A stretch of 34,679 bases of DNA. Origin: an uncultured Erysipelotrichaceae bacterium. GTDB taxonomy: Bacteria; Bacillota_I; Bacilli_A; RF39; UBA660. The DNA lies in the NCBI GenBank assembly GCA_902778125.1, contig CACYWH010000008.1:1-34679 (forward strand), given 5' to 3'. Positions 5,223 to 34,679 of this stretch are shown here, one piece after another. Each line of letters starts with the position of its first letter. Within the stretch, counting starts at the first letter, position 1. Under the pieces are notes generated by a model that was not told where the DNA came from, ran no database searches, and saw only the letters and a program-made list of their open reading frames with translations. Position numbers and translations under genes: made by a program.

Positions 5223-5420
5223 ATGGAAAAGTTTTATTACAATTACAAGGATGTTATTGATATAACAGGATGTAGTCAATCTCTAGCATATAGCATTATA
5301 CGAAAGCTAAGAGAAAGTTTTAAAGAAAAATACCCTGAAGCAATTACGATCCAGGGTAAGATACCAAAATGGTATTTTGAAGAAATAATGAAAGTCAAAA
5401 GAGTAGAAAGGAATGATTAA
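5223..5420 (+). CDS. Small HTH protein (excisionase/regulator type)
   Basis: Product of 65 aa with N-terminal YKDVIDITGCSQSLAYSIIRKLRE, a MerR/excisionase-like HTH, and KIPKWYFEEIMKV, a motif common in small phage DNA-binding proteins of the early operon. TTAGGAGG lies just upstream of the ATG, and the gene starts 9 bp after cro. It may act as recombination directionality factor for the integrase or as a transcriptional regulator; the sequence alone does not decide. Confidence 0.65.
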   Translation: MEKFYYNYKDVIDITGCSQSLAYSIIRKLRESFKEKYPEAITIQGKIPKWYFEEIMKVKRVERND

Positions 5421-19969: not shown

Positions 19970-20175
19970 TGAATAGAATAAAAATGATTTTAAATTTATT
20001 ATTAGGTAAAGAAATTGTTATATATAACACATGGACTAAAAAAATTGTAATGATAATCGGTGGCAATGAAGAAATAATTACTAAAAGATATGATTACGAT
20101 TTTATATACAATGATGACAAATGTATATATGGCAATGAAGATACTGGAGAAATATTCTTTAAAAATGAGAATTAA
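19969..20175 (+). CDS. Hypothetical protein after TerL
   Basis: Product of 68 aa: a hydrophobic basic start (RIKMILNLLLGKEIVIYNTW) and an acidic end (YNDDKCIYGNEDTGEIFF). ATG overlaps the terL stop (TAATG). A related pattern, short strand-rich protein next to a Com-like gene, is common here in Firmicutes phages. Function unknown. Confidence 0.55.
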   Translation: MNRIKMILNLLLGKEIVIYNTWTKKIVMIIGGNEEIITKRYDYDFIYNDDKCIYGNEDTGEIFFKNEN

Positions 20176-20368
20176 ATGTAAAAAGTCTAATAGGTTCTTA
20201 TGTGAAGTAAACATAGAACAATATTTAGCTAATTTAGAAGAGTTAGGAATAAGCCAACAGATACCTCTTGAAATTACAATTCCATGTAGAAGTTGTAGAG
20301 AAATTGAGACTTATGAAATCTATAGCACTCGCTATACCTTTAAAAATAAGGAAAAAAGCAAAAAATAA
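20165..20368 (+). CDS. Com-like small zinc-finger protein
   Basis: Product of 67 aa. Start RIKCKKSNRFLCEV and later IPCRSCREIETYEI resemble the Mu Com family (C-x2-C ... C-x2-C). The first pair is degenerate (CKKS), so metal binding may rely on the other Cys residues. Com in Mu is a translational activator that binds mRNA. The ATG at 20165 is chosen because the product begins with the family-like text; a longer frame to 20090 is mostly overlap with the previous gene. It is followed by the RNA element at 20408-20484. Confidence 0.55.
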   Translation: MRIKCKKSNRFLCEVNIEQYLANLEELGISQQIPLEITIPCRSCREIETYEIYSTRYTFKNKEKSKK

Positions 20369-20372
20369 ATGT

Positions 20373-20401
20373 TTGATTTGCACTTAATTTTATGTTATAA
20401 T
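20373..20401 (+). promoter_or_regulatory. Strong promoter downstream of the Com-like gene
   Basis: TTGATT (20373-20378), exactly 17 bases, TATAAT (20396-20401) with TGT directly before the -10 (extended -10). It lies in the 116-bp gap between two co-directional genes and would start RNA near 20408. Confidence 0.75.
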
Positions 20402-20407
20402 TAATAC

Positions 20408-20484
20408 GTAGAATTGAAGTGCAATTTTGGGCTTAAAACAGTCGCAATGCGAGGCACATACCGAGAAAGGTGTGTGTCTTTTTT
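20408..20484 (+). ncRNA. Structured short RNA or attenuated leader ending in a terminator
   Basis: Three hairpins follow the promoter: AGAATTG/CAATTTT (20410-20428), TCGC/GCGA (20442-20452) and a 10-bp stem (20453-20478). Between the first two is the unpaired stretch GGGCTTAAAACAG. Length is about 77 nt. It does not code for protein. It resembles no RNA family I can name with confidence. Confidence 0.6.
20453..20484 (+). terminator. Intrinsic terminator overlapping the next gene's ribosome site
   Basis: GGCACATACC (20453-20462), loop GAGAAA, GGTGTGTGTC (20469-20478): ten pairs with two G-U, then T6. The ATG of the next gene starts at the base after the T tract, and its only ribosome-like sequence (AAAGGTG) lies in the loop and right arm. 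Confidence 0.85.
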
Positions 20485-20727
20485 ATGTTTAACAAGAATA
20501 AAAAATGGACAATATATTTATTTTATAACGGTATTTGTATTAAGAAACTAAAGATAGACGGCAAAAGCAAAATAGAAACAATGTATATAAGAGTGTATGG
20601 ACATAAAAAATTATTTGGTAAATGGATTGTAGGGTTAATGGTTGAACCAAAGAAACTTTTAAAAACGGATGAAGATAAAAAAAAGACATACTGGGGAGTA
20701 GTCTTTGAGAAAGGGGTTGATTTGTAA
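20485..20727 (+). CDS. Hypothetical protein preceding the portal
   Basis: Product of 80 aa, basic and beta-rich (KKWTIYLFYNGICIKKLKIDGK; ends YWGVVFEKGVDL). The start at 20485 abuts the terminator T tract; an in-frame GTG at 20470 lies within the hairpin. It is joined to the portal gene by a one-base overlap. Its expression depends on read-through of the terminator. Function unknown. Confidence 0.55.
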   Translation: MFNKNKKWTIYLFYNGICIKKLKIDGKSKIETMYIRVYGHKKLFGKWIVGLMVEPKKLLKTDEDKKKTYWGVVFEKGVDL

Positions 20728-22070
20728 TGGAAGGAAGAATAAGAGATAGCTATATATTACAGTCTCCTTTTATCAAGATTAAAGCAAAAGTAACAATGCC
20801 AGGAACTACTAATGGAGTACCTAACATAAAAGAAGAAGAAAGATTTGTAGTAGCTCCATCTGCTAAGAAGATAGCCACATACATAAGGAATCAGTTATTT
20901 GGTAGTGATTTAGTAACACAAACAGAAGGATTAGATGTTAATTGGATTATGCCAACACTAGGTAGAGCATTAGAAGAATCTATCTATGACAAAGAAGCTT
21001 TTATATACATACATAAGTTTGATAATAAAGTATATCTTGAATGTTTAAGAAAATGCCAAATACATAACTTAGTACAAAAATATGACAAAGTAATTAGTTG
21101 TGATATTATCCAAGACTTTGATGGAGAAGAAGCAGATTATAGCTTAGAAAGACATATTGAATTAAAAGGTGATGGAACATCTACAATTCAATTTAGAGCA
21201 TTTGAAAAGAAGAAAAAAGATAATAAATGGTTGCCAATGCCATTATGGAAATTTAACCAAATAACTGGTAATGAGTACAAAGAAATATACAACTTACCAT
21301 ATGAACCAATTATCAATATAGATATTGGTCAAGACTTCTTTAAAGATAGTGAAAAACTACTTAACCAAGAAATGACTATTTTAAATGTATTTGCTGAAGA
21401 AATAGAAAAGACAAAAACAAGAATAGTAACAACTCAACACTATCAAACGGGAGATATAGCAGGTAATTGGAGACCATCTTCTAATATGTATGAAGTTTCA
21501 ACTATAGAAGTAAATCATATGCAAGACTACTTTACATTATTACCTGGAGATAGAGAACATCAGATGTTTGAGTTCTTACAAGGCGATATAAGGCAAAAAG
21601 ATTATGTAGATAGTTTTAAGTTTTGCGATTATCAAATAATACAAATGGCTAATTTAAGTCCTGCAACATTTGGTTATGAAAAAGACGCATATCAAAATGT
21701 AGCAAGTATAGACCTAAATGCAAATATAACTGAAATGACAGTAGAGGCTATTAAAAAACAATTAGAGCCTCAAATAAATCATTTAATAGAAAACATAGTA
21801 AAACTACAAACAAGTCAAGGAATGACGGAAAACCTAATCCCTGCTGAATTAGATTGGGATTATGGAGATAATGAAAGATTTGACGATATGAAAAAATTGG
21901 ATGTTTTAAAGAAGATACAAGGAACCACAGCAGTTCCTTACTCAGTAAGAGCTAAGATTATAACACCAATTTTAAATAAGTTAATAGATGAGCCAACTAA
22001 CGAAGATGACTTAGTAAAGGCATATAAAGAAGAAGAGAAAGATATAAACCTAGCATATGAAGAGTTCTAG
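20727..22070 (+). CDS. Portal protein
   Basis: Product of 447 aa, the expected size for a siphovirus portal and in the expected place after TerL. Visible features include an N-terminal wing (APSAKKIATYIRNQLFGSDL), acidic helical stem and crown segments, and LSPATFGYEKDAYQNVASIDLN, the conserved stretch seen in Gram-positive phage portals. It forms the dodecameric vertex ring through which DNA enters and leaves. The 3' end overlaps the MuF-like gene by 14 bp, a usual coupling. Confidence 0.9.
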   Translation: MEGRIRDSYILQSPFIKIKAKVTMPGTTNGVPNIKEEERFVVAPSAKKIATYIRNQLFGSDLVTQTEGLDVNWIMPTLGRALEESIYDKEAFIYIHKFDNKVYLECLRKCQIHNLVQKYDKVISCDIIQDFDGEEADYSLERHIELKGDGTSTIQFRAFEKKKKDNKWLPMPLWKFNQITGNEYKEIYNLPYEPIINIDIGQDFFKDSEKLLNQEMTILNVFAEEIEKTKTRIVTTQHYQTGDIAGNWRPSSNMYEVSTIEVNHMQDYFTLLPGDREHQMFEFLQGDIRQKDYVDSFKFCDYQIIQMANLSPATFGYEKDAYQNVASIDLNANITEMTVEAIKKQLEPQINHLIENIVKLQTSQGMTENLIPAELDWDYGDNERFDDMKKLDVLKKIQGTTAVPYSVRAKIITPILNKLIDEPTNEDDLVKAYKEEEKDINLAYEEF

Positions 22071-23082: not shown

Positions 23083-23097
23083 CGTTTCCTTTCTTAT

Positions 23098-23183
23098 AGT
23101 GCTACCTTTCTAGGTAGTACAAGGGTAGTAGGCGACTGATAGGCTTATTACTCTTGTAGTGCTTATAAAGGCACTATTGCACT
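23098..23183 (+). ncRNA. Four-way-junction-like structured RNA between head genes
   Basis: Outer stem AGTGC (23098-23102) with GCACT (23179-23183) can enclose three hairpins: TACCT/AGGTA with loop TTCT; an 11-bp stem 23120-23130 with 23146-23156; and TAGTGCTT (23157-23164) with AGGCACTA (23169-23176) and loop ATAA. Several pairs are G-U, which favours an RNA-level function over a DNA palindrome. No T tract follows. It lies in the 131-bp gap, upstream of the scaffold gene's AGGAGG. Confidence 0.6.
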
Positions 23184-23213
23184 TCTAAATATGTCGACAA
23201 TAGGAGGAAGAGA

Positions 23214-23732
23214 ATGGATATATCAAAATATATCACAAATAAGGATATCCAACTATCCAACGAGGATATTAACCTTGAAAAGTTGGAAAAAGATATTAGG
23301 AAGGGATATGTACTTAGCGAAGAGTTAGAAAATGCTAAAAAAGAGGCAATTAAAGAAAGCACTTCAAAATATAGTGAATTAGAAACTAAATACAATACTC
23401 TTGATAAAAGCTATAATGACTTACAAGCTAAATACACAGAACAGACTAATTCAAATGGGGCATTAAAGTTACAGGTTGAAATGGTAAGTCAAGGTTTTGG
23501 TAAGGATAAGTTTGAAGAAATTTCGCAATTAAGAAATACCTTATACAAGGATGAAGTAGACGATAGTAAAGCTATTTCTATGATTAAAGAGAAATTTGGA
23601 GCAACATATTTTCCAAAAACTGAAACTAAGACCGAAGTTCCTAACGAAAGTAATTTTAATAGTCAACCAAAACAAAACCATGAAATTAAAATTACAAGAA
23701 AGACAAGCTTAAGAGACTTGTTAAAAAAGTAA
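23214..23732 (+). CDS. Scaffolding protein
   Basis: Product of 172 aa, acidic and largely coiled coil (NAKKEAIKESTSKYSELETKYN), with an N-terminal YVLSEELENAK segment and a basic C-terminal end (EIKITRKTSLRDLLKK) typical of capsid-binding scaffold tails. It precedes the major capsid gene by 21 bp. It directs procapsid assembly and then leaves. AGGAGG precedes the ATG. Confidence 0.9.
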   Translation: MDISKYITNKDIQLSNEDINLEKLEKDIRKGYVLSEELENAKKEAIKESTSKYSELETKYNTLDKSYNDLQAKYTEQTNSNGALKLQVEMVSQGFGKDKFEEISQLRNTLYKDEVDDSKAISMIKEKFGATYFPKTETKTEVPNESNFNSQPKQNHEIKITRKTSLRDLLKK

Positions 23733-23753: not shown

Positions 23754-24614
23754 ATGAATTACACACAAGAAGGTGTTTATAGTTTAGATTTACAAAGTGT
23801 TGCTAAACGTATTTATGACTCTTTGTTATATCGTTCAACATTTTATAAATTTCTAAACCCTAACTTCATTGGAGAATTAAGAAATGCTGGTACTCCAATG
23901 ATCGAAGTTTTAAAATCAGCAGAAGCAACAGTTAATGTAAGAGAGACTAAAGAAATAACAACTGCATTAACTCCAGGACTATTGGGTTATAACTCAGTAA
24001 AAGTAGATTTAACTGAATTACCAATGGATTATTCAATTCAGATTCCAGTTCTAGTAGCAGGAACTAACTTTATCAATACATTAGAAAATGCTATGGATAA
24101 AAAAGACCAAGCAGTAGCAAAAAGAATTGATACATATGGATTTGGTGTACTTGCTGAGGGTGTAACTAATGAAGCAGAATGGAACCCAGCAACTAAAGAA
24201 GATTACATTTCAACATTGACTTCATTAAAAGCAACATTATTCAACAATAATGTATATGAAGATTACAGATTAGGTTTAGCAGCAACCGAATATGGAAATC
24301 TAGTAGCAGCTTTAACATCAGTATTAAAATTTGAGACTGAAGCTGGTAGAGATGGCGTAACATTTGGTGAAATTGCAAATGCTTACGGAATTGATATGTT
24401 CCCAATCAATGACACAATGTTAAGTGATGTTAAAGGATATTTCTATAATCCATTAGCAGTAGTTGGAGACACATTCTTTGATAGTTTCGTAGAATACAAC
24501 GGAAATTATCCAGGATTCCCAGGTTACTATGTAATGGAAGGTAACATTATGTTTGGTGCTAAAGTAATTGAAGAAGGAGCAATCCTTAAACTAGTTGACG
24601 AAGTATCAGCATAA
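23754..24614 (+). CDS. Major capsid protein
   Basis: Product of 286 aa. The position after scaffold, a strong ribosome site and richer codon use (more GC-ending codons than neighbours) fit the most abundant virion protein. Text such as GELRNAGTPMIEVLKSAEATV, VKVDLTELPMDYSIQIPVLV and a C-terminal VMEGNIMFGAKVIEEGAILKLV fit an HK97-fold coat of the scaffold-containing Gram-positive phage type. No N-terminal delta domain or fused protease is present, so separate scaffold is expected. Confidence 0.9.
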   Translation: MNYTQEGVYSLDLQSVAKRIYDSLLYRSTFYKFLNPNFIGELRNAGTPMIEVLKSAEATVNVRETKEITTALTPGLLGYNSVKVDLTELPMDYSIQIPVLVAGTNFINTLENAMDKKDQAVAKRIDTYGFGVLAEGVTNEAEWNPATKEDYISTLTSLKATLFNNNVYEDYRLGLAATEYGNLVAALTSVLKFETEAGRDGVTFGEIANAYGIDMFPINDTMLSDVKGYFYNPLAVVGDTFFDSFVEYNGNYPGFPGYYVMEGNIMFGAKVIEEGAILKLVDEVSA

Positions 24615-26564: not shown

Positions 26565-26571
26565 CCTTTAA

Positions 26572-26600
26572 GGTGGGGTGGACAAAACCTCATCTTTTTT
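26572..26600 (+). terminator. Intrinsic terminator between tail tube and tape measure
   Basis: GGTGGGGT (26572-26579), loop of 7, ACCTCATC (26587-26594), 8 pairs including two G-U, then T6 (26595-26600). It would reduce tape measure expression relative to the abundant tube protein. Confidence 0.8.
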
Positions 26601-34429: not shown

Positions 34430-34679
34430 ATGGATATAACAAGTTATTTATTAGGAAAGAACTCTGCTGGTGGAGGAGGTGGTTCAGACTTAGACTGGAC
34501 TGCCTTAGGTTATGAAGAAAGACCACAAGCAATTGATGACGCGTATAATGTTGCGTTGAAAATAAAAAATGAGTGGAATAGCACATCTAGTTTAAAAACA
34601 TATCAATATGAAGTTGTTATATGCCCAATGGTAGATACTAGTGCAAAAACATCTTTTAGATATTTTGCTCAAAATTGTT
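34430..34679 (+). CDS. BspA-like/DUF285 repeat protein, 5' part (continues at base 1)
   Basis: ATG at 34430 behind AAAGGAG opens a frame that stays in phase through 34580 and continues at base 1 to the stop at 425. The N-terminus MDITSYLLGKNSAGGGGGSD repeats the tag of the preceding gene. A short helical segment (EERPQAIDDAYNVALKIKNEW) leads into the DUF285 repeats. The last 99 bases here duplicate the start of the window. Confidence 0.85.
   Translation, partial: MDITSYLLGKNSAGGGGGSDLDWTALGYEERPQAIDDAYNVALKIKNEWNSTSSLKTYQYEVVICPMVDTSAKTSFRYFAQNC
34581..34679. repeat. 99-bp terminal direct repeat, right copy
   Basis: Identical to bases 1-99. See the left copy for interpretation. Confidence 0.95.

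Follow-up and report, generated by a model that had tools for sequence, protein, structure and literature searches.

A conserved RNA element in the late operon of uncultured gut and rumen phages, with a seed complementary to a putative head-gene leader

Results

The late operon of the window

The window, meaning the whole 34,679-nucleotide stretch analysed here, carries integrase, CI-like repressor, terL, portal, tape measure and lysin genes. It is read as a probably complete circular phage genome of ~34,580 bp because it has a 99-bp terminal direct repeat (1-99 and 34581-34679). The RNA element lies between the terL side and p85-portal, in the family gene order of terL, p92, element, p85 and portal (Table 1). 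The original prediction had put the portal directly after the terminator, but the small p85 comes first and the portal follows it. The putative scaffold and major capsid genes have no firm family match. The late genes hold a second terminator-like hairpin on the sense strand at 26570-26596, before the tape measure gene.

Table 1. Features of the RNA element, its predicted target and the neighbouring genes in the window
Feature	Position	Strand	Basis or remark
p92 gene, 67 aa, starting at M26 of the ORF as listed	20165-20368	+	zinc-ribbon-like
Late promoter: -35 TTGATT, 17 nt, extended -10 TATAAT (TG before -10)	20373-20401	+	sequence scan
5′ seed of the RNA, GAAGUGCAAU	20416-20425	+	complementary to 23176-23185
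Possible antiterminator helix P0: GUGC 20419-20422 with GCAC 20454-20457	20419-20457	+	inferred, folding
Hairpin P1, bulged G at 20444	20427-20447	+	covariation
Intrinsic terminator P2 (20451-20480) and T tract to 20484	20451-20484	+	scan and covariation
p85, small first gene after the terminator, stop overlaps portal start	20485-20727	+	
Portal	20727-22070	+	phrog_533, 2.6e-8
Structured leader of putative scaffold gene, holds target and SD	23083-23213	+	z -6.1 for 23083-23240
Target, AUUGCACUUC	23176-23185	+	exact 10-nt complement of 20416-20425
Shine-Dalgarno (SD) AGGAGG of putative scaffold gene	23202-23207	+	ATG 23214
Putative scaffold gene, 172 aa	23214-23732	+	position and composition only
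Putative major capsid gene	23754-24614	+	position and composition only

A conserved unit of promoter, hairpin and terminator

The RNA is predicted to start at ~20408-20411 and to be ~75 nt long. As originally described, an extended -10 promoter stands before it, its last hairpin is an intrinsic terminator, kept throughout the relatives, and the T tract ends at 20484, directly adjoining the ATG at 20485. By itself, a promoter match of this kind is no commoner than chance in the AT-rich window (42 matches vs 39.9 expected), yet promoter-like sequence is conserved at this place. Upstream of the RNA, 81% of the 68 relatives reach a promoter score of at least 10, against 10% of shuffles. The relatives' promoters often have the full consensus TTGACA-17-TGnTATAAT, and a clear -35 is missing in some clades.

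Repeats accompany some of the promoters. In the window and L009, and partly in L010-L012, TTGCACTT (20379-20386) and AAGTGCAA (20417-20424) form an inverted repeat around the promoter that could be an operator. Direct TGTC/TGTCC repeats occupy the expected -35 place upstream of the RNA in L037-L045, L083, L095-L098, L107 and L128, which suggests an activator-dependent version of the promoter.

Across relatives, both-side changes occur at 7/7 pairs of P1 and at 7/11 pairs of the terminator stem P2. The base of the terminator's 5′ arm, RGCAY, is conserved with the remaining stem variable, and its GCA is invariant in the 68-copy alignment. The covariation score of the element is 0.54 vs 0.21 when shuffled and at most 0.15 when slid, and is somewhat favoured by an alignment fitted to the structure. 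The folding energy of 20373-20484 is -39.4 vs -22.2 kcal/mol for shuffles (z -5.7).

Of the three hairpins first proposed, P1 and the terminator are borne out by these compensatory changes but the first one is not conserved. It (AAUUG-AAGUG-CAAUU) forms only in near relatives, and elsewhere that stretch is the mostly single-stranded seed. The seed is on average 0.71 unpaired by folding of the terminated RNA, and its core GUGCA is invariant among the 68 aligned copies. The segment GGGCTTAAAACAG, first proposed as a possible binding site, is not conserved and turns out to form the loop side of P1, which varies. The ribosome-binding bases noticed in the terminator hairpin do recur as an SD in the terminator loop of some relatives, whereas others have a free GGAGG 3′ of the T tract. 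Such placement is therefore not what is conserved, whereas the terminator occurs throughout. A leader peptide (GUG-CAA) was also considered and rejected, the ORF lengths varying from 2 codons up with no SD by eye in the 68 copies.

At the level of sequence, the promoter, hairpin and terminator are shown to be a conserved unit. The original prediction was to be given up if hairpins and promoter were not conserved in related phages. The unit is conserved and covarying, so that refutation fails.

Distribution among uncultured phages

The relatives come from TerL scans of viral contigs, giving 39 loci and then 80 loci that overlap the first set, and from a genome scan giving 5 more. Their TerL identity goes down to ~50%. 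We built a covariance model from 68 distinct element sequences, and its best match is the element in 29/29 whole phage records. In 27 of them the match is strong, with one copy each (E<=1.2e-6), and in the other two it is weak (G315, E 0.002; G318, E 0.003). The model finds no second copy below E 0.019 in any of the 29 records.

The window copy is the sole strong match in the host's own genome. Among 291 family and 395 class genomes, there are two strong matches beyond the window, G209 and G366, each with p85 and portal homologues as neighbours. Three weak matches in host genomes, all with differing gene order, were rejected as ordinary sequence. Those in L135 and L138 fall within cellular genes or at their ends, and that in L140 lies between cellular genes. 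L137 is a further weak alignment in host genomes.

No named RNA family had been recognised at the start, and the Rfam covariance models agree. Rfam 15 (4227 families) has nothing in the window at gathering score and, with the threshold relaxed to E<=5, no match that falls on the element in any of seven relatives. The element has no match by blastn in isolate phages, and its exact pattern has none in the viral contigs. The nearest isolate-phage TerLs have <26% identity, among the matches listed. By these comparisons, the element is carried across a family of uncultured gut and rumen phages.

In some phages, cargo genes separate p92 from the promoter of the element, so the element and the head genes form their own transcription unit. 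The cargo region of L013 holds, at 5344-5398, a sub-threshold match resembling the twister-P1 ribozyme (36.3 bits, gathering 67.2, E 2.7e-4).

Covarying seed and target

The putative scaffold gene has, in its leader, the complement of the seed. This complement measures mostly 8-14 nt in relatives, where it covaries with the seed, and it lies ~2.5-2.9 kb from the element on the same strand, 12-31 nt upstream of the scaffold start codon. Most of the 29 records have the motif TGCACTTY on the sense strand, ~2.7 kb downstream of the RNA, and further records do likewise. The scaffold leader is the best duplex site in 22/25 operon scans and across the whole 34.7-kb window. Against dinucleotide-shuffled leaders, the seed-target duplex has z<-3 in 42/50 phages with a median z of -4.5. 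In cofolding, at least 7 seed pairs form on the leader in 48/48 with a mean ddG of -9.2.

Position by position, the pairs are kept through changes. Seed offset -3 covaries from G-C to A-U or U-A, with 100% paired vs 81% permuted (0/1000), and offsets -7, -5, +5 and +6 covary also, in per-position permutations that ignore relatedness. Seed and site co-change as AAAGUGCA with TGCACTTT in L037, L043, L044, L107 and L128, GAUAAGUGCAU with ATGCACTTATC in L083, AGGUGC with GCACCT in L018, and AGAAAAAGUGC with GCACTTTTTCT in L133. The target site is absent in L132, where the RNA and p92 are not found and p85 is present. It is absent too in the L115 class, whose RNA is degenerate with its seed lost. 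Exceptions are L015 and L021, which have the RNA without a good target. Base pairing of the seed with the leader is well supported. The original prediction offered either a phage small RNA or a leader gating the portal operon, which the conserved, covarying unit fits, but it missed this complement in the scaffold leader.

The leader has other recurrent features. A 6-8 nt palindrome lies between the target and the SD (23191-23200 in the window and equivalents), and differs in sequence among phages with its symmetry kept, as in GTCGAC, TCTAGA, TCGCGA, GACGTC, GCTAGC and TCATGA. Upstream of the target, L022, L024, L026, L029, L078 and others have AGACCAG-n-CUUGAA-UGUCU-AUAAAC-UUUAAG, which could be an H-type pseudoknot resembling the preQ1-I architecture. 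The window's group has hairpins in its place.

An accessible conserved seed and a conserved covarying target are the marks of a trans-acting base-pairing sRNA, and cis pairing could give them too. In that case, the readthrough mRNA would pair its own 5′ end with the scaffold leader 2.7 kb away. The complementarity is the same, both sites are on one strand, and the full-length mRNA carries the same 5′ end as the short RNA. We consider this long-range pairing unlikely, because a terminator is conserved just behind the seed and would release a free short RNA, which should be more abundant than the long one.

A structural or packaging RNA such as phi29 pRNA would agree with the constant place between terL and portal. 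It is highly improbable, as several phages have cargo genes separating the RNA from the terL side and the covarying partner is a leader and no motor part.

Predicted effect on scaffold translation

The target of most phages shares bases with a segment, CUUCU or a variant of it, for which pairing with the SD region is predicted. The pairing is kept in variants, namely CUUUCUC:GAGAAAG in L096, UUAUCU:AGAUAA in L083 and CCUUUAA:UUAAAGG in L018. The SDs are purine-rich, as is the seed. The SD is only moderately more closed than it is behind shuffled upstream segments (0.30 vs 0.41, Wilcoxon p 1e-4). On full leaders, the SD unpaired probability is 0.31 free and 0.65 bound, going up in 41/48 and down in 0/48.

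From these models, activation of scaffold and capsid translation is the favoured, if putative, effect of binding. Repression could come from a duplex close upstream of the SD, which ends 12-18 nt from the start codon in some phages. This direction seems quite unlikely, since the predicted SD accessibility rises on binding in 41/48 leaders and falls in none.

In the window's full leader, the SD goes from 0.25 to 0.29 on binding and stays closed, because CUUUCUU just 3′ of the upstream stop codon pairs with it. Due to this longer SD-closing stem, the accessibility calculation does not predict activation there.

A possible antiterminator and p92

The possible helix P0 encloses P1 and overlaps the terminator's 5′ arm. 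In truncated transcripts with the terminator's 3′ arm omitted, its mean pairing probability is 0.91, and it exceeds 0.5 in 65/68. P0 has no covariation because both strands are nearly invariant. By folding, P0 (GUGC:GCAY) may be a RAT-like antiterminator that excludes the terminator and controls readthrough.

In p92, C5, C41 and C44 are invariant and a fourth Cys is missing in several members. Its predicted model is confident (pLDDT 92), and LysW is the best weak fold neighbour (Z 3.2). The window's p92 has no Pfam match, and neither p92 nor p85 has a firm relative in Pfam, PHROGs, PDB sequences or Foldseek. Searching viral contigs for p92 returned mostly the phage contigs already in the sample. 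We rejected p85 as the RNA's partner, for it persists in L132 without the RNA. Hence, p92 is the better candidate for an RNA-binding partner or regulator.

The element might then be a cis attenuator only, in which GUGC:GCAY and P1 make a RAT-like antiterminator that a phage protein, p92 being the obvious candidate, stabilises once the late genes are to be expressed, and the short RNA is waste. The P0 prediction in truncated transcripts fits this, and so do the conserved RGCAY in an otherwise variable stem and the co-occurrence of p92 with the RNA, both being absent in L132. However, attenuation alone leaves the complementarity and covariation of the seed and the scaffold leader unexplained, P0 is without covariation support, and p92 is retained in the L115 class although a normal RNA is lacking there. 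We find it rather doubtful.

Discussion

We consider it moderately probable that the element yields an RNA similar to StxS and lambda 6S by early termination of the late transcript, and that this RNA, by pairing with a head-gene leader, probably makes the ribosome-binding site there available. The late transcript would start from a strong promoter located between the terL side and the head genes. RNA polymerase would make ~75 nt and then mostly stop at the intrinsic terminator. The resulting short RNA would consist of the single-stranded 5′ seed, hairpin P1 and the terminator hairpin, and its seed would pair with the leader of the putative scaffold gene upstream of the start codon. The seed resembles the SD and would compete with it for the target segment, so binding should expose the SD and raise scaffold and capsid translation. 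Transcripts passing the terminator would be the late head mRNA. We infer that the RNA is made, acts in trans and activates, and that readthrough is regulated, possibly via P0 and p92.

A more elaborate reading is tentative. Attenuation before p85 and portal would give an abundant trans RNA that, like a tap, switches on scaffold and capsid translation from few full-length mRNAs. One element would thereby set a low portal to high capsid ratio, and p92 would balance the short RNA against readthrough.

StxS (reviewed in PMC7873438, PMC12197685) and lambda 6S are short RNAs from late-promoter transcription that ends at an early terminator (PR'-tR') before the late genes. The 74-nt StxS pairs with a site in the rpoS 5′ UTR, where activating sRNAs unfold a repressive structure. 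Its targets are stx1B and the rpoS of the host, it depends on Hfq, and RNase E processes it. The present element shares with them, in its sequence layout, a promoter directly followed by a terminator upstream of late genes. Unlike for StxS, a leader within the same operon is the predicted target, co-evolution of seed and target runs through the family, and the hosts are uncultured Bacilli/Clostridia-like bacteria. By the description of the system, StxS is the closest functional precedent, set apart by its target, chaperone and processing. The element itself has no Rfam match.

Other systems resemble parts of the element. The RAT-type antiterminators of BglG, SacY and LicT use a hairpin that overlaps and excludes the terminator's 5′ arm, as P0 may do, but no PRD antiterminator protein is identified here and P0 comes from folding only. 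In phage Mu, the Com protein is an mRNA binder that switches on translation of mom, a gene linked to it (PMC6483171). It is a small cysteine-containing phage protein as is p92, but p92 has only three invariant cysteines and one member matches gpCom weakly (E 0.067); homology would be putative. The conAn bipartite antitermination of Gram-positive conjugation operons also serves a large late-type operon with terminators needing bypass (PMC8955417), whereas the RNA here carries its own terminator.

A keyword search of a review of phage-derived sRNAs, in the parts available, gave none pairing with phage virion structural genes (PMC12197685). No phage attenuator or sRNA that acts on late structural genes came up in the literature search. 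As far as the literature searched goes, the kind is known and the novelty is a family-wide element with its seed co-evolving with a head-gene leader in its own operon.

In summary, the RNA element is probably a built-in RNA control of capsid production. If true, RNA pairing inside the late operon would couple the translation of head genes to late transcription in a whole phage family, one known chiefly through metagenomes. The old by-product of late promoters, the lambda 6S type of RNA, would become a regulator with a seed and a target that evolve together. The covarying seeds and targets are natural variants for direct testing.
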